From the NCBI GenBank assembly GCA_902500995.1, contig CABVSR010000014.1, forward strand, positions 24,842 through 88,841: a stretch of 64,000 nt of DNA. Reading direction: 5' to 3'. Of this stretch, positions 3,127 to 16,331 are shown piece by piece. The translations under genes and the position numbers were made by a program. The stretch's first letter is position 1; each line of letters starts with the position of its first letter. This DNA is from an uncultured Nitrospira sp. GTDB lineage: Bacteria > Nitrospirota > Nitrospiria > Nitrospirales > Nitrospiraceae. Under the pieces are notes generated by a model that saw only the letters and a program-made list of their open reading frames with translations, was not told the DNA's origin and did no database searches.

Positions 3127-4881
3127 TTACTCTCCCTGTTGATTTGCAGTGGTTTTCGCGAACAATGCCTGGCGTTGATGGTAGTACCCGATCGCAAAGC
3201 GTCCTTGATCACCAAGGCTCATATGAGCAGGGAAGTCGTTCACTTCCTCCATAATCTGGCCGATCAGACGCTCAAAACTTACTTTCCGTCCTGGATTCTG
3301 AAGCTTTGCGAGGTGATGGTTCTTTAATTTCATGAGAGTAGGAAATACTGTCACGGGCGTGGCTGACGCTGATCCATAGAAGCGATCACGAATCGTGGCA
3401 TTGAGTCCGGGATTTGCCTCCTCCTGAGCTTTTTCAAGGACCGCAAACAGGCACCCCAGGCGATACCCTGAATTTCGGTTGCTTAGATCAAGTGCCACGG
3501 CAATCTCCTTTTCGTGTGACATTTGTATGGTACGGTTCTGACGGTTCAAATACGCCTTGAGAATGGCCGCGCGCGGATACGTTACCTCGCGTTCAGCCCG
3601 GATGCGGCGCACAGCGTTTTGCAGCAACGATGCAGGATATCGCTGCCCCGAGAGAATAGCTTGCATGAGTTCTCCGCCAAGATTAGGCGGAATATTGTCG
3701 CTCTTATTCTGTACAGCGGTAGCCACAAGAAGTCGGAATACGGAAAGGCAAGGCTTCTCGTATGGCGGGCGATCAATCTCAATGTCAACGAAATGCTGTT
3801 GAATGGTTTTCGCCAATGCTGCCACGGTGCCGACATGCCAAAAGCGAATGGCGATACGCGCAGCATTAGGGCTTAGCCCAAGTACAAAAAAGCGTGTCTG
3901 ATCATCATCGACGGGTGCCACACCATGGCGTGGCGCTTGGTATAGCGCCTTGAGGGCTCGCACCGCACGATCGGGATCATCCTTTGGCGGCTCAGCGAAA
4001 AGATCAGCGAACTGATCCTCTAATGAACTGGGTTGATCTGCCCAGAATACAGTAGATGCATCGCCCACCTGAATGCGTTGTTTGCTGTCTCTTGCCAACA
4101 GGCAATTGACCGCTGTGGTGTAGGCGAACGCGGCCTTCTCCCCAACCGGCGCATTGGAGCCTTGCTTCTTACCCCACGAAGTAAAGGAAGGCAGATTAAA
4201 GGACACGACATTGGCTCCGGATGTTTGAGCGCCCCATACGCCTTTAATGGCAGGATGCAGACGTTCAATTTGTGTCGCTTTTCCTGTGATGAGGCAGATG
4301 CCATCCCCATCTTGTGCACTCTCCGCTTCCGTCATGGCATCACTTACTGATGGGCGCTGACACACCAGTTCGAGATCACCTTGCAAACGAAACGTCATAT
4401 TTGGATTGGTACTTCTGATCTCTTCCCACACCTCACCAAACCGCTGCAGGTCGGCAGGTTTTGTGTTATCGAAGAACTTTAAAACAGCCCGCACACCTTC
4501 ATCGGCTTGAACTCTTTCCGGCAAAGCTTTCACGGCATCAACGAATGCCGCATGCATTTCTTTCAAGCGGTCCCCATAATCTCCTTCCTTGCCTTTTCCT
4601 TTCCTGTCAGCCAGCTTCTTCTCGTCGGGCAACCCGAGGACGTACTCGGCATTGCCCCACAGTATATTGGCAGCTACATTGACAGACTTTTTTGCTGCTT
4701 GCGGAAGAAGATAATTCTTTGCTCGCTTCTTTTTTCCATCGAGACTGCGAGTATCTTCGATCTGAACGACCGAGCCGGTCTTGCTCACCTCGATCACAAA
4801 TGGAATTTCCCTAGACTCGAACCCCTCTCGTGGCAGCTCGGGTTTACGTTGATAGTAGTCGTACAGTGCCTGAAGGATCAT
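3127..4881 (-). CDS. cas8c: Type I-C Cascade large subunit Cas8c (Csd1)
   Basis: Cas8c is the large subunit of type I-C Cascade and recognises the PAM during DNA targeting. The 584-residue protein begins [12 protein letters not shown], the usual start of Csd1, and contains [22 protein letters not shown] and [21 protein letters not shown], regions characteristic of the family. I chose the ATG at 4881 because GAGGAGG lies 8 bases upstream and the resulting ATGA overlaps the cas5 stop. An in-frame codon 24 bases earlier is less likely. In other type I-C systems the small Cas11 subunit is made from an internal start in this gene; I did not identify that start here. Confidence 0.94.
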
Positions 4882-5615
4882 CCCCGCACCTCCTCGCTTT
4901 CCCATGCAGGGACCATGACGGTACCATTCACCAAACGGGCCTGGAAGAAGCGCGGTTTGGGATCAGCGGGATCGCTGTAATCCATGTCGTACAGCATCCA
5001 GCCAAGATGCCGCGTTTCTTCGATAGGCGCAGGCTCAGTCTGCACGTCAGCTACTAACCTGAATGCGCAGGCAAACTCGCGGCAACCGAGATAAGGCTGA
5101 TTAACGCACTGTCCCCGTGAAGCACGTCTCTCAAACATGCTCATGAACTTCACCGCGTTGTTGTCGGGCAACGCGAGCAGATCTGCCTCGCCACTACTAA
5201 TTGGAACCTTGGAGAGATGCGGAAAGTACGGTTTATGAAAGCTTGGGTCGCTGAGTTCAAAGTGCGCATGGATGCGATAGGCCACGTCTCGCAGAAATAG
5301 TCCCGCTCGTTGTTGGCGCTCGTCTTCAACATAGATCCCTAGGTCGCCGGAGCCAATGCTCATCGCAGCTTGAACATTCCGCGTTGAAGCCACAGCCCCT
5401 ACTTCATTCCGCCGGACACTGATCCACGTGATCGGTTTCAGCACTTCGATCTTGGTCACTCGCCAACGGATGGCTGGTTTCCAGATGATCGCCTCAAAGA
5501 TCGCTCGGGCAGCCGATGGTGTCATCACGTCGTAAGAGACACGCTCGACCTTCATTTCTGGTCGCGTAAAGCAGGCAAAGTCTCCCGCCACTTCAAGACA
5601 ATAGGATTTGCGCAT
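4878..5615 (-). CDS. cas5: Type I-C crRNA endonuclease and Cascade subunit Cas5c (Cas5d)
   Basis: In type I-C systems, which lack Cas6, Cas5c cuts the pre-crRNA at the base of the repeat hairpin and caps the 5' handle. The 245-residue protein has the family's N-terminal pattern (VAGDFACFTRPEMKVERVSYDVMTPSAA in outline, with the Tyr typical of the active-site region) and LRDVAYRIHAHFEL in the middle, where the catalytic basic residues lie in homologues. I favour the ATG at 5615 because AGGAAC precedes it; an upstream ATG at 5627 overlaps the cas3 stop as ATGA and is possible. No cas6 is present, consistent with this role. Confidence 0.93.
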   Translation of the reverse strand: MRKSYCLEVAGDFACFTRPEMKVERVSYDVMTPSAARAIFEAIIWKPAIRWRVTKIEVLKPITWISVRRNEVGAVASTRNVQAAMSIGSGDLGIYVEDERQQRAGLFLRDVAYRIHAHFELSDPSFHKPYFPHLSKVPISSGEADLLALPDNNAVKFMSMFERRASRGQCVNQPYLGCREFACAFRLVADVQTEPAPIEETRHLGWMLYDMDYSDPADPKPRFFQARLVNGTVMVPAWESEEVRG

Positions 5616-5623
5616 AGCGTTCC

Positions 5624-7864
5624 TCATACAATCAGTTGAGTTACATCCAATGTGCCGCCCACAGTCACACCGATTTTGTCATCGTATAGAGTGCTAACCG
5701 CCTGACCAAAGATCCCAGGGTAAACCTCTGATACTTCTCCGTCTGCGACGAGTTTGTCGACCACACGGCGAGGAAGGTTGACGCTATATCGTTGCAACTT
5801 GCGCATGAGCCAGCGCTCAGGCCCATCCCTCTTGAGTTTTCCGAGCAGCGTTTGGCTTTCGCCATACCAGACAAGGATGGCTTGGGTCTCGACATCATCG
5901 ATGAGCCTGAACCTCTCAGCGGCGGTGCGGAATTGAATTTTAAGCTCTCTCGCATCTCTGGTCAGCAAATCGCTAATGCCATATTTATCGAGCGAGTCTG
6001 CCATTCCATAGAAATGCTCGAAATATTGGGTGAACAATCCTCTCCTCATGGGGTCAACTCCGCTGCCGCTCATGAGGCTGATCGTTGTTTGCTCTGCCTT
6101 TCGAAGCGTGCCGGGAGGCGACTGTTTTGGCGGCATGAACACAACGACTTTGCCGCGATTCAGTCGGCCCTCGCGGTTACAGCGCCCGGCAGCCTGGGCA
6201 ATTGAGTCCAAGCCGGATAGGGCGCGGTATACCACAGGGAAATCGATATCCACACCGGCCTCGACGAGCTGTGTGCTGATGACACGCGTTGGGACGTTCT
6301 TCCTTAATCGTTCTCGTATGTCTTTAATGACCAATGATCGATGTTCTCCGCACATCGCAGCCGACAGATGAAAGGTGCCGTCCGGCATGAGCCGGTGCAA
6401 TTCGCGACAGTTCGATCTGGTATTCACCACGGCCAAGACCGAATCATGCGTCGTTAGTTCAGCGGCGATTTCTTCCCATTCCTGCCGCGCATGAAAGTCT
6501 TTCGGCATCTCGACTGTCACACGTTCCAGGTCGCGGTACAGTGCATTCGGGTCTGCGATGATTTCATGCACACGATTCAGCCCTCGAAAAGTCCACCCGA
6601 GCCCTTCGCGCGAGTACAAGGCAGGTTGAGTCGCAGTAGACAGAACGAACGTGACGCCATAGTGCTGTGCCAAGAGGTTGATGATGTCTAGGATTGGCTG
6701 CATGAACTCTAGGGCCAGAAGCTGCGCCTCATCCAGAACCACAACGCTGTTCACGATGTTGTGAAGCTTGCGACAAGCAGAAGTCCTGGCCGCGAATAGC
6801 GACTCAAAAAACTGCACATTGGTTGTGACAATTACAGGTGCATCCCAGTTTTCTGAGGCCAAGCGGCTTTTGGCGGTTTCCTTCTCCGGATCCAGATTAC
6901 TGTGATGTTCAACAACGCTATCACCAAAGATGCCTCTGAACACTCCGGCCGTCTGCTCGATGATGCTGGTGTAGGGGATGACGTATATGACTCGGCGTTT
7001 CTTGTATTGAACTGCATGCATAAGGGCGAAGGTTAAACTTGACAGTGTCTTACCACCACCAGTTGGAACGGTAAGTGAGAAGATACCGGGCGAGTCTGAG
7101 GCACGTTCGCTGCACTGCCGAAGGACGTCGGCTCTCGCGCGGTTGACGACAGATGGCATAGCCCCAGCGGTCAGCATCGTCATGTGTTGATTCAGTTGAT
7201 CAAGCAGCATGCTCAAAGAAAGGAACTGCCCACGAGGCAACGCGGTCTTACCGTTCATGAAGCTCTCTGTATCAAGGAAGTCACCGTCAACCAGACAGGA
7301 AAAGAGCATCCGCAGCCAAAGTGCAAGGCCGGTTTCTCCGCCCAATGGTTTGTTGCTTGGAATAATCGCAGGATGAAGCACATCAGCAGGAACCCTCGCG
7401 CTAGAGATAGCTTTCAAGTGCTGCTTATCTTCTAGGCGGTTAGAAAGAGATGAAAGGGCATGCTCGTCCGCATGCCAATCCGGCAAGCCAGCATGATGAC
7501 CAGCGATCAGATAGGCCAGAATCCTCCCTTTCACGCCGAGCTCCTCGAGAGCATGGAGCGCGCCGGCGGAAGAGTGATTCACCCGTCCCTTCCCGCCTTC
7601 AATATGCGCTTCTGGATCAAAACCACTTTCACGAGCTATATAGCCTTGGAAGGCCGAAGAATACTTTCCGAGGTCGTGCCAGAGTCCTGCCAACTGCCCC
7701 CAATCCGAAGCCCCAAAGTCTGAGGCATACCCACCTGTGAGAGCAGCCACCGCACGCAGATGATCGTCAAGATCATGAATAACAAACGATCCATCAGCAC
7801 TCGCACGGACGTGCGCCAGATAATGCCTTTTAGATTCCTCTGAATAAAACTCAGTTGAATTCAT
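5624..7864 (-). CDS. cas3: CRISPR-associated helicase-nuclease Cas3
   Basis: Cas3 is recruited by target-bound Cascade to nick, unwind and degrade DNA. The 746-residue product carries an N-terminal HD nuclease domain (WHDLGK at 62-67; further His at GHHAG near 122) and an SF2 helicase with Walker A GGGKT (269-273), DEAQ box (378-381) and motif III STATQ (409-413). The RNVPTRVISTQLVEAGVD region is motif V-like. Nuclease and helicase are fused, as usual for type I-C. The start has an AAAGGTG site about 13 bases upstream, inside the end of the small gene before it, suggesting shared transcription. Confidence 0.96.
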   Translation of the reverse strand: MNSTEFYSEESKRHYLAHVRASADGSFVIHDLDDHLRAVAALTGGYASDFGASDWGQLAGLWHDLGKYSSAFQGYIARESGFDPEAHIEGGKGRVNHSSAGALHALEELGVKGRILAYLIAGHHAGLPDWHADEHALSSLSNRLEDKQHLKAISSARVPADVLHPAIIPSNKPLGGETGLALWLRMLFSCLVDGDFLDTESFMNGKTALPRGQFLSLSMLLDQLNQHMTMLTAGAMPSVVNRARADVLRQCSERASDSPGIFSLTVPTGGGKTLSSLTFALMHAVQYKKRRVIYVIPYTSIIEQTAGVFRGIFGDSVVEHHSNLDPEKETAKSRLASENWDAPVIVTTNVQFFESLFAARTSACRKLHNIVNSVVVLDEAQLLALEFMQPILDIINLLAQHYGVTFVLSTATQPALYSREGLGWTFRGLNRVHEIIADPNALYRDLERVTVEMPKDFHARQEWEEIAAELTTHDSVLAVVNTRSNCRELHRLMPDGTFHLSAAMCGEHRSLVIKDIRERLRKNVPTRVISTQLVEAGVDIDFPVVYRALSGLDSIAQAAGRCNREGRLNRGKVVVFMPPKQSPPGTLRKAEQTTISLMSGSGVDPMRRGLFTQYFEHFYGMADSLDKYGISDLLTRDARELKIQFRTAAERFRLIDDVETQAILVWYGESQTLLGKLKRDGPERWLMRKLQRYSVNLPRRVVDKLVADGEVSEVYPGIFGQAVSTLYDDKIGVTVGGTLDVTQLIV

Positions 7865-8820: not shown

Positions 8821-9732
8821 ATGGCCAAGACCACCGCATCATCCGGGGGCAAATCCAAAGCCCTGTCCTTACACATCGGTCTCAATGCCGTGAGTCCGGC
8901 CGCCTATGGAGGGTGGAGCGGCGACTTGGCCGCCTGCGAGTTCGACGCGAAGGATATGGCGGCGATCGCCAAATCGCAGGGCATGAAGCCCACGGTGCTG
9001 CTGACCAAGCAAGGCACCCGCGCCAACATGCTGGCGGCCCTGCGCAAGGCAGCGAAGCAACTCAAGAAGGGCGATTTTTTGTTTCTGACCTATTCAGGCC
9101 ACGGAGGCCAAGTGCCTGACGTGACGGGAGACGAAACCGACAAGCAGGATGAAACCTGGTGCCTCTTCGACGGGCAGCTGATCGACGACGAGTTGTATTT
9201 CGAATTGAGCCGCTTCGGGGCGGGCGTGCGCATCCTGGTGCTCTCCGACAGTTGCCACAGCGGCACGGTCACCCGCGCCAGACCGCGCACTCCGGCCGGT
9301 GCTGCCCCATCAGGCCGTTCGAAGATGATGCCGCCTGCCGTCGCCATCCGCACCTATCGCGAGCACCAGCAGTTCTACGACCGCTTGCAGCGCGAGGTGG
9401 CCAAGGCCGCGGGTAAGGCGTCGTCCGCCGATCCGGACACGGTGTTGGCGCAACTGGCTGTGAGTCCGCGCCTCACCGCCATCGCCAAGAAATTCAAGGC
9501 GTCGGTCGTGCTCATCTCCGGTTGCCAGGATAATCAAACGTCGTTGGACGGCGAACAGAACGGCGCCTTCACCGAGCAGGTGCTGAATGTTTGGAACCAC
9601 GGCAAGTATCGCGGAAACTACGCCGCGTTCCACGCGCAGGTGAGGGCGGGCCTGCCCTCCAGCCAGTCGCCGAATCTGTTTACGCTCGGCGCCGTCGCCC
9701 GCTTTCTCAAACAGCAACCGTTCACGGTGTGA
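8821..9732 (+). CDS. Caspase-family (peptidase C14, orthocaspase-like) cysteine protease
   Basis: The 303-residue protein carries the caspase catalytic dyad: His94 in YSGHGGQ and Cys145 in SDSCHSG, each after the expected beta strand (FLFLTYSG and VRILVLSDS). No signal peptide is visible, so it should act in the cytoplasm. Bacterial caspase homologues cleave after basic residues (orthocaspases) or serve as effectors of programmed death and defence. No fused sensor domain is seen here, so the trigger is unknown. It is divergent from the cas operon and followed by small secreted and membrane proteins. Gene start: GGGAGG five bases before the ATG. Confidence 0.9.
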
Positions 9733-11179: not shown

Positions 11180-11200
11180 CGAGGCGCGTCGTTCGTCGCT

Positions 11201-11320
11201 CGTATCTCGTTCCTCGTGAAGCGTCGTTCGTCGTTCGTTCCTCGTGAAGCGTCGTTCGTCTTACGTTTCACGAGATACGCTTCACGCTTCACGTTTCACC
11301 TTTCACGCTTCACACCGCAC
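11201..11320. repeat. Low-complexity intergenic repeat: tandem 28-bp units and self-complementary ends
   Basis: A 26-base unit beginning TCGTTCCTCGTGAAGC occurs at 11207-11232 and again at 11235-11260 (period 28). The flank CGTATCTCG (11201-11209) is the reverse complement of CGAGATACG (11271-11279). The right part is built from variants of CACGCTTCACGTTT. The whole block is mainly TTCGTC and TTCACG words on alternating strands and could fold back as RNA or DNA. It is non-coding and lies between two plus-strand genes. Confidence 0.7.
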
Positions 11321-11365: not shown

Positions 11366-12313
11366 ATGGCAGAGCGCATCGTCATCGAACGGCTGGAGTT
11401 CTACGGCCGTTGCGGCGTGACGGAAGACGAACGCCGGAAACCCCAGCTCATCGTGGTCGATCTCGAACTGGACGCGACGGTGGACTCCGCGGCACAGTCC
11501 GATCGCCTGCACGACACCATCGATTACGCCCGCGTGGCGGAACGGATCGTGGCGCTCAGCACGACGCTCACCTGCCACCTGCTCGAATCCTTGGCCGAGC
11601 AGCTGCTCGGGATGCTGTTCGCCGAATTTCCCGCCGATCGCATCCGCATCTGGATTCGAAAACTCCACGCGCCATTGGCCATGGTGGCCGGGTCCGTCGG
11701 CATCCGGATCGAACGCACCCGCGCCCAACAGCAGTCGAAACAGCAGCCCCTCCACCCCGCGCCGTTTCTCGTGCAACAACTCGCGCGGCTCCCGAAGGGC
11801 CAGATTCTGGATGTCGCCGCCGGACGCGGGCGCAATGCCCTGTATCTCCTGGCGCAGGGCTCGCAGGTGGAGGCCATCGATCGGGATCCGGAGGCTCTTG
11901 CCGCAGTGGAGACGGCTGCGAAAACGCAACGACTCTCCGGCCTCACGACACGGGTGCTCGATCTGGAAGCCTCCGCCGATCATCCGCCCAGCTTGGGCCG
12001 TAGTTGTTACGATGCCATCCTGGTCTTTTTTTACCTGCACCGCCCGCTGTTCCCGGTCTTGCTGGAGGCCTTGAAACCGAACGGCATCCTCCTGTACGAA
12101 ACCTTTACCATCGACAATTATTTTCGCCACCAGCATCCCCGGCGGTGGGAGTTCTGCCTGGCGCAGAACGAACTCCTCCGCCTGACCTCGCCTCTGCGCG
12201 TCCTCCATTATGATGAGGGCGAACATGACGGGGGCCATGGCAGCGGGCCATGCTTCACCGCGCGGCTGGTCGCGCAGAAAACGGGGCCGGACCATCACCA
12301 TGAGTCGCATTGA
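11366..12313 (+). CDS. folB: Fusion of dihydroneopterin aldolase (FolB) and a SAM-dependent methyltransferase
   Basis: Residues 1-118 match FolB, which converts 7,8-dihydroneopterin to 6-hydroxymethyldihydropterin and glycolaldehyde in folate synthesis: FYGRCGVTEDERRKPQ with Glu20, DYARVAERI, LLESLAEQL and the active-site Lys99 in WIRKLHAPL. A Gln-rich linker (120-128) leads to a class I methyltransferase of the TehB/UbiE type, with SAM motif ILDVAAGRGRNALYL from about residue 147, the acidic AIDRD, and the post-motif LKPNGILLYETF. Ordinary FolB is about 120 residues. The frame is open throughout, so this is a true fusion. Its last 14 bases overlap the PHP gene. The methyltransferase substrate is unknown. 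Confidence 0.85.
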   Translation: MAERIVIERLEFYGRCGVTEDERRKPQLIVVDLELDATVDSAAQSDRLHDTIDYARVAERIVALSTTLTCHLLESLAEQLLGMLFAEFPADRIRIWIRKLHAPLAMVAGSVGIRIERTRAQQQSKQQPLHPAPFLVQQLARLPKGQILDVAAGRGRNALYLLAQGSQVEAIDRDPEALAAVETAAKTQRLSGLTTRVLDLEASADHPPSLGRSCYDAILVFFYLHRPLFPVLLEALKPNGILLYETFTIDNYFRHQHPRRWEFCLAQNELLRLTSPLRVLHYDEGEHDGGHGSGPCFTARLVAQKTGPDHHHESH

Positions 12314-13148
12314 CCTCCACTTGCACACCACCCACTCGGACGGCAGCTATTCCACCCGCGAGGTCATGGCCTTTGCCAAGCAGGCCGGCCTCACGGCGCT
12401 TGCGATTACGGATCACGACATCGTCGAGGGGATTCCCGAGGCCACGGCCATCGGGGAAGAACTCGGGATCGAGGTGATTCCCGGCGTCGAGATCAGCTCG
12501 CGCCTCGGCGAGAGCGAACTGCACATCCTCGGATATTTTTTGAACTGGACCGATCCGCTGCTGGCACAGCGCCTGCAAACCCTGCGCGACAGCCGCCACC
12601 TGCGCAATCCGAAAATCGTCCAACGCCTCAACGAACTCGGCGTTCCCATTACGTACGAGGAAGTGCGGGCCCTGGCCGGTACGGAATCCGTCGGGCGGCC
12701 CCACATCGCGCGCCTACTCATGGAGAAAGGGATCGTGACCTCCGCCAAGGAAGCGTTCGACCGGTATCTGGCCAACGGGCGCCCGGCCTTTGTCGACCGC
12801 GAATTGCCCGAACCGGCGGAAGCGGTGCAATGGATTCGCGAAGCCGGCGGGGTGCCCGTGCTCGCCCACCCGACCTGGGTCAGAACCTCGGCTGACGGCT
12901 TGCGCGTGCTGGTCCGGGAACTGAAAGCGGCCGGGTTGGGGGGGATGGAAGTCCATTACAGCACCCATACGCCCAGCCAAACCACCGAATACCTCGATCT
13001 GGCCAAACAATGCGATCTCCTCGTCACCGGGGGCAGCGATTTTCACGGCGTCACCAAGCCTGACATCGAAGTCGGTATCGGGCGCGGGCACCTCAAAGTG
13101 TCCGCGAAGCTGCTCGATCCGCTCAGAAAAGCCGCCGCCGTTTCCTGA
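12300..13148 (+). CDS. PHP-domain phosphoesterase (RNase AM / nucleoside 3',5'-bisphosphate phosphatase type)
   Basis: The 282-residue protein starts IDLHLHTTHSDGS, the metal-binding PHP motif I, followed by ITDHD, PGVEISS, HILGYF, VLAHPTW and the C-terminal GSDFHG. This set fits the YciV/TrpH branch that degrades 3',5'-bisphosphates or trims RNA 5' ends. No polymerase domain is attached. The ATG lies inside the 3' end of the folB fusion (14-base overlap), so translation should be coupled. Exact substrate cannot be read from sequence. Confidence 0.85.
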   Translation: MSRIDLHLHTTHSDGSYSTREVMAFAKQAGLTALAITDHDIVEGIPEATAIGEELGIEVIPGVEISSRLGESELHILGYFLNWTDPLLAQRLQTLRDSRHLRNPKIVQRLNELGVPITYEEVRALAGTESVGRPHIARLLMEKGIVTSAKEAFDRYLANGRPAFVDRELPEPAEAVQWIREAGGVPVLAHPTWVRTSADGLRVLVRELKAAGLGGMEVHYSTHTPSQTTEYLDLAKQCDLLVTGGSDFHGVTKPDIEVGIGRGHLKVSAKLLDPLRKAAAVS

Positions 13149-13341: not shown

Positions 13342-14751
13342 ATGACCACATCCTGGGGCTGGATCGGCCCATACGTCATCGTCATTGCCCTCGCGTTGCT
13401 GGTGGGACCGCTTCTCGCTTCTCTCCCGCTGTTTACCCACACCTTCATCCGCCCCCTGGGCATGAACGTCTCGCAGATCGTGCAGCTGCTCGCCGATGGC
13501 ATTTGCCTGCTGATGATCTGGTCGGCCGCGTCGCGCGCCAGACGCGACCTGAAGCATAACGGCAAGGGGCAGACCTTCCTTCGCGCCATTCTGTTTCCCT
13601 CCGCGGTGTTTCTGATCGTCCTCGCGGCCTTCCAGGCCTACGAAGCACACGGTGTTGCGGTGCTCGGCCCGCCCAAACAACCGCTCTACAATTGGTTGAT
13701 CACCGGCGGCCTCATCGGATCGGCGACCTGGCTCACGTTCGCCTGGGTCCGGCATGTCGACGCGCTGACAAGCATGTTTGCCGGCCGCACCCGCCGACGG
13801 CCGACCATGGAGGATCAGGCTAGGGGTGACAAGCCAGGCGGAGCGCGCGCGGCAGCCGACGGGGTCTCATCCGCCCCGGCGCGCCCGAGCGCCGGCCTCG
13901 CCGCCCGCAACGGCAGCGGCATCCCCGCCTCGTTGGGACGATATCAAGTGATCAAGGAGCTGGGCCGCGGCGCCATGGGCGTCGTCTACCTGGGCAAGGA
14001 TCCGACGATCCAGCGGTTTGTCGCGATCAAAACGATGCGGCTGGACGACATCGACAAGGAAGACGAACTGAAAGCCTTCCGGGACCGTTTCTTTCGCGAA
14101 GCGGAATCCACCGGTCGCCTTTCCCATCCCAATATCATCACCGTCTACGATGCAGGCGAGCAGGACGGGCTGGCCTACATCGCCATGGAGTATCTCGAGG
14201 GCGTGCTGCTCAACTGTTACTGCCAGAAATCGACGCTGGTCCCGGCCAAACAAGCCCTGCAGATTGTGACCACCGTCGCCGAGGCGCTGGACTATGCGCA
14301 CAGCCAGGGCGTGATCCACCGCGACGTGAAGCCGCCGAATATCATGATCCTGAAACAGCGCCTGGTAAAAGTGATGGACTTCGGCATCGCCAAGGTGGCT
14401 ACCGCCACGAAAACGCAGACCAGCATGATCGTCGGGACCCCGCGGTACATGTCGCCCGAACAGGCGACCGGCAAGGATGTCGACGGCCGGTCCGATGTGT
14501 TTTCGCTGGGCATCGTGCTCTTCGAACTCCTGACCGGCGAACGGCCTTTCGATGCCGAGAACATGCCGGCGCTGGTCACCCGCATCGCCAAGGCTCCGCA
14601 CCCGCCGCTCATGAAATACCGCCGCGACCTGCCCACACGCGTGCAGAGCATTCTTGACCGGGCACTGCAGAAGGAGATCCAGAATCGCTATCGTCATGCC
14701 GGCGACATGGCGCAGGATCTCCGCGACGTCTTCCAGGTCATGCCGAGATAA
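13342..14751 (+). CDS. Membrane-anchored Ser/Thr protein kinase (PknB/Hanks type)
   Basis: Residues 1-130 contain about four hydrophobic segments (near 9-30, 45-62, 80-98, 108-126). A Pro/Ala-rich linker leads to a Hanks-type kinase domain from about 198: glycine loop GRGAMGVVYLG, ATP Lys230, catalytic HRDVKPPN (326-333), DFG (346-348) and GTPRYMSPEQ. All catalytic residues are present. The order, membrane part first and kinase last with no extracellular PASTA repeats, differs from classical PknB and suggests membrane-localised sensing within the bilayer. It is followed after 8 bases by a PP2C phosphatase and then an FHA protein. Confidence 0.93.
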   Translation: MTTSWGWIGPYVIVIALALLVGPLLASLPLFTHTFIRPLGMNVSQIVQLLADGICLLMIWSAASRARRDLKHNGKGQTFLRAILFPSAVFLIVLAAFQAYEAHGVAVLGPPKQPLYNWLITGGLIGSATWLTFAWVRHVDALTSMFAGRTRRRPTMEDQARGDKPGGARAAADGVSSAPARPSAGLAARNGSGIPASLGRYQVIKELGRGAMGVVYLGKDPTIQRFVAIKTMRLDDIDKEDELKAFRDRFFREAESTGRLSHPNIITVYDAGEQDGLAYIAMEYLEGVLLNCYCQKSTLVPAKQALQIVTTVAEALDYAHSQGVIHRDVKPPNIMILKQRLVKVMDFGIAKVATATKTQTSMIVGTPRYMSPEQATGKDVDGRSDVFSLGIVLFELLTGERPFDAENMPALVTRIAKAPHPPLMKYRRDLPTRVQSILDRALQKEIQNRYRHAGDMAQDLRDVFQVMPR

Positions 14752-14759
14752 TTCCGCCC

Positions 14760-15584
14760 ATGCACCACTGGCACATCACACATGGCGCTGCGTCGGATAT
14801 TGGCCTGGTCCGCCGCCTCAACGAAGACCGTTACCATGCCGACACGGACGCCGGGCTCTTTGTCGTGTGTGATGGGATGGGCGGGCATCAAGCAGGCGAG
14901 GTGGCCAGCAGCCGCGCGATTGAGCTCATTGTTCAGCACGTGACCGAGGCGGACGCGGACCCGTCCCTCCCCTTGATCGGGATGGCCCGTCCTGAATTTA
15001 CGCCCGCCACCAACCGGCTGGCGAGCGCCGTGCGGCTCGCCAATCACCGGGTGCACGAGGAAGCGGCGCGGCGCGTGGACTATGCCGGCATGGGCACCAC
15101 GGTCGTCGCAGCCCGGCTCCACGGTGGAATTCTGTCGATCGCCCACGTCGGCGACAGCCGGCTGTACCTGATTCGTGACGGAGCGGCGCGGTTGCTGACG
15201 GTGGACCATTCGCTGGTTCAACAGCAAATCCAATCCGGACTCCTGGCCGCGGCCGACCGGGCCCGCGCCTCGCACCGGCATGTGCTCACCCGCGCGGTCG
15301 GCGTGCACCCCCTGGTCGATGTCGAGTTGGGAGAATGCCCCGTCTTGACCGGGGATATCTTTCTGCTCTGTTCCGATGGACTGACGGCCGGTGTCTCCGC
15401 CGACATGATGTTGCGTGTCACCTTAGAATCGACCGACCCTCAGGCCATCGCCCGGCGTCTCGTCGCCCTCTCGAACGCCGCCGGCGGCACCGACAATGTC
15501 ACCGTCATCGTGGCTCAGGTGACACAGCGTCACCAGGGCTTTTGGAATCGCCTGTGCTCGCACTGGTTTTCGCCCCCTGTCTAG
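14760..15584 (+). CDS. PP2C-family Ser/Thr protein phosphatase
   Basis: The 274-residue enzyme should reverse phosphorylation by the neighbouring kinase. The PP2C metal motifs are all present: NEDR near residue 20, VVCDGMGGHQAGEVAS, AGMGTTVVAA, AHVGDSRLYL, LCSDGLT and GGTDNVTVIV. The short C-terminal tail ends in an amphipathic FWNRLCSHWF stretch that may touch the membrane. Upstream spacing of 8 bases indicates cotranscription with the kinase. Confidence 0.94.
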   Translation: MHHWHITHGAASDIGLVRRLNEDRYHADTDAGLFVVCDGMGGHQAGEVASSRAIELIVQHVTEADADPSLPLIGMARPEFTPATNRLASAVRLANHRVHEEAARRVDYAGMGTTVVAARLHGGILSIAHVGDSRLYLIRDGAARLLTVDHSLVQQQIQSGLLAAADRARASHRHVLTRAVGVHPLVDVELGECPVLTGDIFLLCSDGLTAGVSADMMLRVTLESTDPQAIARRLVALSNAAGGTDNVTVIVAQVTQRHQGFWNRLCSHWFSPPV

Positions 15585-15605
15585 ACCTAATGTGAAGGAG
15601 CGCCC

Positions 15606-16331
15606 ATGTCTCAGCACCATCCAGCTTCACCCATCCTCCTCGTGAGGGCGCCCCAGGGCGGCACAAGAGAATGCGAGATCACCCGCACGCCGTTGACCAT
15701 CGGGCGCAAACCGGGCAACGATCTTTGCCTCGACGACCCCGCGGTCTCCGGCCATCATGCGCGCATCGTGCAAATCCAGGAGGTACTGTTTCTGGAGGAT
15801 CTCAAGAGCACGAACGGCAGCTTCGTGAACGAACAGAAGATCGATCGGCGGCAGCTTCAGGATGCCGATAGCCTCCGGTTTGGGGCTCACCGGGTGATCT
15901 TTCGGGACAAGCAGGCTCCGGCGGCGGAACCGGCGATCGCCGGCGAGACGCCGGTCGCCGACCGCACGATCGTGGTGTCGTCTTCCTCAGGAAGCGCGCC
16001 CTCTACGCCGGCGCGCACGGTGGGCATCGTGGAGATTCTTTCGGGCAAGACCGATCGGCCGCAGTATTCCTTGACCAAACATGTCTCGCTGATCGGCGCG
16101 CAGGACGATGCCGTCATCACCCTCACGGGCTGGTTTGCTCCGAACAGCGCCGCTGTGATCAGTCGCCGGGGCGAGGCCTACGTCATCAGCCAGACCGAAA
16201 GCGGCAAACGCATTCTGGTCAACAGCCGCCCGATTCAGAGAGAACATACGCTCCGTCAAGGAGACGTGGTGGAAGTGGCAGGGATTACGTTGCGCTTCGT
16301 GTTGCGCGACGAGCGGAGCCAGGCCGCCTGA
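15606..16331 (+). CDS. FHA-domain phosphothreonine-binding protein with a second, degenerate FHA
   Basis: Residues 8-100 form an FHA domain with the binding signature: Arg in LTIGRKPGNDLCLDD, Ser and His in VSGHHARI, and Asn in LKSTNGSFVN. A Ser/Pro-rich linker follows. Residues about 140-235 look like a second FHA-like sandwich (SLIGAQDDAVITL, AAVISRRGEAYVIS, ILVNSRPI, LRQGDVVEVAG) lacking the canonical Arg. GAAGGAG precedes the ATG. With the kinase and phosphatase it completes a phosphothreonine writer-eraser-reader set. Confidence 0.92.
   Translation: MSQHHPASPILLVRAPQGGTRECEITRTPLTIGRKPGNDLCLDDPAVSGHHARIVQIQEVLFLEDLKSTNGSFVNEQKIDRRQLQDADSLRFGAHRVIFRDKQAPAAEPAIAGETPVADRTIVVSSSSGSAPSTPARTVGIVEILSGKTDRPQYSLTKHVSLIGAQDDAVITLTGWFAPNSAAVISRRGEAYVISQTESGKRILVNSRPIQREHTLRQGDVVEVAGITLRFVLRDERSQAA

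Follow-up and report, generated by a model that had tools for sequence, protein, structure and literature searches.

FolB, the dihydroneopterin aldolase, normally assembles as an octamer. Most FolB proteins are free-standing, or are fused to other folate enzymes. In the FolB-FolK(-FolP) fusions, folB shares one reading frame with the gene for another enzyme, the arrangement has been retained over deep time, and the joined enzymes catalyze consecutive steps of one pathway; the report on these folate fusions makes no mention of a methyltransferase as a FolB partner (PMC4224340). Here we analyzed a stretch of 64,000 nucleotides from an uncultured Nitrospira sp. (hereafter called the window), in which folB is likewise joined in frame to a second enzyme gene and the join is likewise ancient. 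In contrast to the folate fusions, the partner is a methyltransferase with a putative separate substrate.

Results

A FolB domain and a methyltransferase on one chain

Positions 11366-12313 (+) of the window form one uninterrupted ORF of 315 codons, encoding a 315-residue protein (Table 1). This single polypeptide consists of an N-terminal FolB and a C-terminal class I SAM methyltransferase. The initial annotation had read the gene as a complete FolB in frame with a complete class I methyltransferase, and the profile matches, the invariant residues and the two-domain structural model all bear this reading out. The AlphaFold model of the whole protein, calculated with 22 homologues, contains two confident domains with a mean pLDDT of 82.8, while its pTM of 0.60 leaves the relative placement of the two domains uncertain. 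The methyltransferase domain modeled alone reached a pLDDT of 86.7 and a pTM of 0.85.

Table 1. Features of the fused gene and of its downstream neighbor (window positions)
Feature	Residues	Positions	Strand	Basis
FolB (dihydroneopterin aldolase) domain	1-117	11366..11716	+	PF02152, TIGR00525, invariant residues, fold match
Variable linker	118-130	11717..11755	+	Loose dN/dS; lower model confidence near 121-130
Class I SAM methyltransferase domain	~131-305	11756..12280	+	Pfam Methyltransf_25/_11, TehB; fold match
SAM-binding motif I (DVAAGRGRN)	149-157	11810..11836	+	Conservation among 70 fused sequences
Signature YETF...HPRR.EFCL..NELL; putative substrate side	244-271	12095..12178	+	Conservation among 70 fused sequences
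PHP-domain phosphoesterase gene, neighbor of the fusion		12300..13148	+	Pfam PHP, 7.9e-12

Several other features surround the locus. CRISPR genes for Cas5 and a Cas3-like helicase (4878-7864, -; Pfam Cas_Cas5d, 1.2e-34, and Cas3-like_C_2, 2.5e-12) lie a few kb upstream of the fusion, and a caspase-like (peptidase C14) gene (8821-9732, +; 1.6e-22) lies between them and the fusion. Short imperfect direct repeats (CGTCGTTCGT.../CGTGAAGCGTCG), together with inverted copies, occupy positions 11186-11286, immediately upstream of the fused gene. Downstream, the PHP gene is followed by a row of Ser/Thr kinase, PP2C phosphatase and FHA genes (13342-16331, +), which is conserved at related Nitrospira loci.

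The aldolase half

Residues 5-116 match the full length of the Pfam FolB model PF02152 (5.9e-28; 98.1 bits against a cut-off of 31.8), and the protein passes the folB equivalog TIGR00525 (87.1 bits; cut-off 72.15). The FolB half superimposes on solved Y. pestis and plant DHNA structures with Z scores of about 17. Four catalytic-type residues, E22, Y54, E74 and K99, do not vary in any of the 70 distinct fused sequences, and the active-site lysine named in the initial annotation is therefore present in all of them as K99 (codon at 11660-11662). We take these four residues to be the active-site equivalents, on the basis of alignment and of the S. aureus DHNA; the titles of the Y. pestis DHNA structures name Tyr53 and Lys98. 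We also considered FolX, the dihydroneopterin triphosphate epimerase, and rejected it, as the FolX model NF008418 gave 37.8 bits against a cut-off of 152.

The source genome (3.97 Mb) encodes FolE, FolK and FolP, and its only FolB is the fused one: a search of the whole genome for a second, housekeeping FolB found none. Judged from this gene content, it is very probably the fused protein that serves the cell as the aldolase of the folate pathway. Compared with the FolB family at large, it has the same full-length domain, the same four residues and the same single-copy occurrence alongside other folate genes, and differs in carrying a second enzyme at its C-terminus.

The methyltransferase half

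The C-terminal half has a Rossmann-like fold, a glycine-rich motif I and an acidic residue, D172, after the second strand, which place it in class I. Residues 144-236 score 36.6 bits with Pfam TehB, above the gathering score of 20.4, and Methyltransf_25 and Methyltransf_11 are likewise above their cut-offs. At the SAM site, D149, G155, R156 and D172 are invariant in the 70 fused sequences, and G153 is found in 69. Judging from the motif and the fold, this half would bind SAM. Within the signature, E245, T246, F247, H257, P258, F263, C264, L265, E269, L270 and L271 are conserved in 70 of 70 fused sequences, and most of the signature is shared with stand-alone homologues in Nitrospirota.

The closest solved folds are Slr1183 (Z 23.5) and TehB (Z about 22), followed by a bicyclic-heterocycle methyltransferase from M. 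tuberculosis (Rv0560c; Z about 20) and then by many small-molecule enzymes. With TehB and Slr1183 (PDB 2xvm, 3mer), the fused half has in common the fold and the SAM-binding core, at 23-26% identity. It differs from them in its own HPRR.EFCL..NELL signature, in being joined to FolB and in falling below the TehB equivalog cut-offs. An assignment as TehB proper was rejected on these scores (TIGR00477, 39.8 against 219.5 bits; NF008405, 44.3 against 218; NF008992, 42.2 against 303). The C-terminal half is best described as an uncharacterized small-molecule methyltransferase of the TehB/Slr1183-like type.

Could it be a detoxifying enzyme, TehB-like or an S-methyltransferase acting on sulfide, thiols, selenite or tellurite, that came to sit on FolB by historical accident? 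TehB and Slr1183 are its top matches in both sequence and structure, and distant plasmid relatives lie near rhodanese, DsrE-like and TusA-like genes, a hint of thiol chemistry. However, these plasmid relatives are just 31-37% identical and long-branched, the TIGR00477 score is far under its cut-off, and the signature sets the family apart. We regard a detoxifying role as improbable.

A closer homologue is a stand-alone methyltransferase of Nitrospirota (e.g., L124-L128, L129 and L132). It is about 40-56% identical to the fused half and has most of the signature in common with it, but is encoded by a separate gene, usually away from folB. This clear homologue is probably the source of the fused half.

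Distribution and origin of the fusion

Nearly every Nitrospirales genome encodes the fused protein co-linearly over its full length, with identities of 40-90%. When 146 Nitrospirales genomes were searched with Pfam FolB, FolB was detected in 142, in a single copy except in one genome with two (G393), and nearly always within an ORF of at least 300 residues, long enough for the fusion. In the two short-ORF exceptions (G250 and G418), which are fragmented assemblies, the FolB and methyltransferase halves lie on different contigs. Two further genomes that are more than 90% complete (G315 and G049) have folK, and the search detected no FolB in them; an assembly gap and a bypass enzyme are the alternatives. 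Among plasmid records, no place covered 80% of the fused protein. A literature search with most subscription journals outside its reach found no paper on Nitrospira FolB fusions.

The domain search across genomes, which the initial annotation had put forward as a check, thus recovers the same fusion throughout the order and dismisses a sequencing join. An artefact of assembly or annotation, for which nothing speaks beyond the oddness of the pairing, is barely conceivable: the identical join is present in closed chromosomes, such as that of Ca. Nitrospira defluvii (FP929003), as well as in dozens of independent assemblies.

Both halves are under strong purifying selection. When the window protein was compared with 11 congeners, dN/dS was about 0.09-0.14 for FolB and 0.06-0.15 for the methyltransferase, against about 0.2-1.3 for the 13-residue linker. 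Together with the invariant catalytic and SAM-site residues, these low values indicate that both halves are being maintained.

How did the two halves come to be joined? In related lineages outside Nitrospirales, FolB and the methyltransferase are separate genes, mostly on different contigs. In family f21, a free folB closes the row accD-folC-lptD (the last of which we presume to be lptD from a reading of its sequence), and these three genes also occur within a few genes of the fusion at L052, L059 and L063. Since they accompany both free and fused folB, the folB site is ancestral, and the methyltransferase is the addition. The FolB tree places the fused sequences on one side of a single branch in 96% of bootstraps; the methyltransferase tree requires one or two changes and is compatible with a single origin. 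The trees thus fit one single fusion event.

Gene neighbors and the substrate of the methyltransferase

The initial annotation had suggested that the fusion makes a methylated pterin or couples folate synthesis to a methylation step. The corresponding explanation is that the C-terminal half methylates the substrate or product of FolB or a related pterin, e.g., an intermediate of the molybdopterin pathway, and thereby yields a methylated pterin or tunes the split between folate and the molybdenum cofactor. The neighbors of the fused gene lend this some support. The fused gene in many genera has moaC, a MoaD-MoaE fusion and moaA as divergently oriented neighbors; in family f4 (L116-L118), it lies beside folD and the methylenetetrahydrofolate reductase gene (metF), rather than beside moa or PHP genes. 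At L121, the moa cluster next to the fused gene includes a single ORF (6604-7314, +) that comprises an N-terminal MoaD-like stretch and MoaE, of which the MoaE part alone is confirmed by profile. Some stand-alone copies point the same way. The methyltransferase gene directly precedes moeA in both f5 genomes examined; and the f21 copies follow prmA, with gcvT, encoding a THF enzyme, nearby or, in one f21 genome, with ftsH-folP downstream of the methyltransferase gene, folP being two genes away.

In contrast, the neighbors in most stand-alone families are unrelated to pterins. The copies in f7 and f10 lie beside ChaN, archease-RtcB or what we take, from a reading of the sequence, to be FluC; those in f6 and f8 lie beside ferredoxin, and those in f14 beside others. 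The prmA gene next to the f21 copies also belongs among these unrelated neighbors. Because most stand-alone copies have such neighbors, the pterin and folate neighbors are suggestive only, and gene neighbors do not settle the substrate of the methyltransferase. Moreover, family f9 has FolB but lacks a close relative of this methyltransferase. The fold likeness to the M. tuberculosis enzyme, which would favor a pterin-like substrate, is common to many class I methyltransferases, and the literature searched contained no paper on a pterin methyltransferase of this kind.

The initial annotation had also proposed that the product of the downstream PHP gene could act on a phosphorylated intermediate. 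The two genes do overlap by 14 bases, as first noted, with the PHP ATG at 12300 and the fusion stop codon at 12311-12313, and the PHP gene adjoins the fused gene in 21 of the 28 fetched loci. However, it is absent there in two of the four families, f2 and f4, and the best models of its product are a 3′,5′-nucleoside bisphosphate phosphatase and RNase RNM, with both equivalogs below cut-off (NF041577, 222.7 against 400 bits; NF047791, 190.4 against 375). The proposed role is accordingly not upheld. A pterin phosphatase was rejected on the same grounds, namely the resemblance to nucleotide and RNA phosphoesterases and the lost linkage.

One genome provides a natural case for separating the two halves. 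G393, the only Nitrospirales genome with a second FolB, has a separate folB-folK pair besides the fused gene. The pair belongs to an SDR-folB-folK set (L149 4221-5850, -), with a 4-base overlap between folB and folK; this folK occupies L149 4221-5098, and another folK is located elsewhere in the genome. In the FolB tree, the extra folB is not close to the fused FolBs, and was therefore probably acquired. The fused FolB half of G393 has a branch of 1.83, against a median of 0.28, whereas the branch of its methyltransferase half in the methyltransferase tree is 0.51, like those of its sister sequences. The methyltransferase half thus persists at a normal rate where a second folB exists, which speaks against a pterin substrate tied to FolB. 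The fast FolB half and the ordinary methyltransferase half suggest, from this one case, that selection acts on the methyltransferase separately from the aldolase. The argument is weakened by family f4, whose FolB branch is also long although no second folB is present.

Discussion

We favor, at about even odds (a probability of roughly 0.5), the explanation that the protein consists of two working enzymes on one chain, which were joined once, and that the methyltransferase has a small-molecule substrate of its own. The N-terminal half would be the only dihydroneopterin aldolase of the cell, converting 7,8-dihydroneopterin to 6-hydroxymethyl-7,8-dihydropterin and glycolaldehyde for folate synthesis; we assign this reaction from the family, the conserved residues and the single-copy status. 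For the C-terminal half, we predict SAM-dependent methyltransferase activity of the TehB/Slr1183-like, small-molecule type.

In this scenario, a methyltransferase gene that already existed on its own would have been fused to the resident folB in a single event preceding the diversification of Nitrospirales, and the two would have remained together since. Given the octameric assembly of FolB, the fused protein would form a FolB core bearing several methyltransferase domains, with the two enzymes in equal amounts. The methyltransferase most likely keeps a separate small-molecule substrate, so that the two enzymes would be linked through joint expression and assembly and not through a common reaction path. 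We infer this independence mainly from the gene neighbors and the one natural case.

Nevertheless, related substrates would more readily account for the retention of the fusion across the whole order and for the adjacent pterin genes. These two observations speak for the proposed coupling between folate synthesis and methylation, and the other neighbors, family f9 and G393 speak against it. On balance, we consider methylation of a FolB substrate or product, or of a related pterin, a tentative alternative and on the unlikely side. Slightly less likely still is its strongest form, a new pterin methyltransferase with which Nitrospirales produce a methylated pterin or alter an intermediate of the molybdopterin pathway, linking folate, the molybdenum cofactor and the SAM supply. 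If true, this link would operate in organisms whose nitrite oxidation needs a molybdenum enzyme.

That a folate enzyme present in single copy is kept fused throughout an order suggests a functional link, none having been described in the literature searched. The fusion opens a direct way toward identifying the substrate of an uncharacterized methyltransferase family, and it may reveal new pterin chemistry in nitrite-oxidizing and comammox bacteria. Even if the link is co-expression only, the protein clearly illustrates that enzymes belonging to different pathways can be stably fused.
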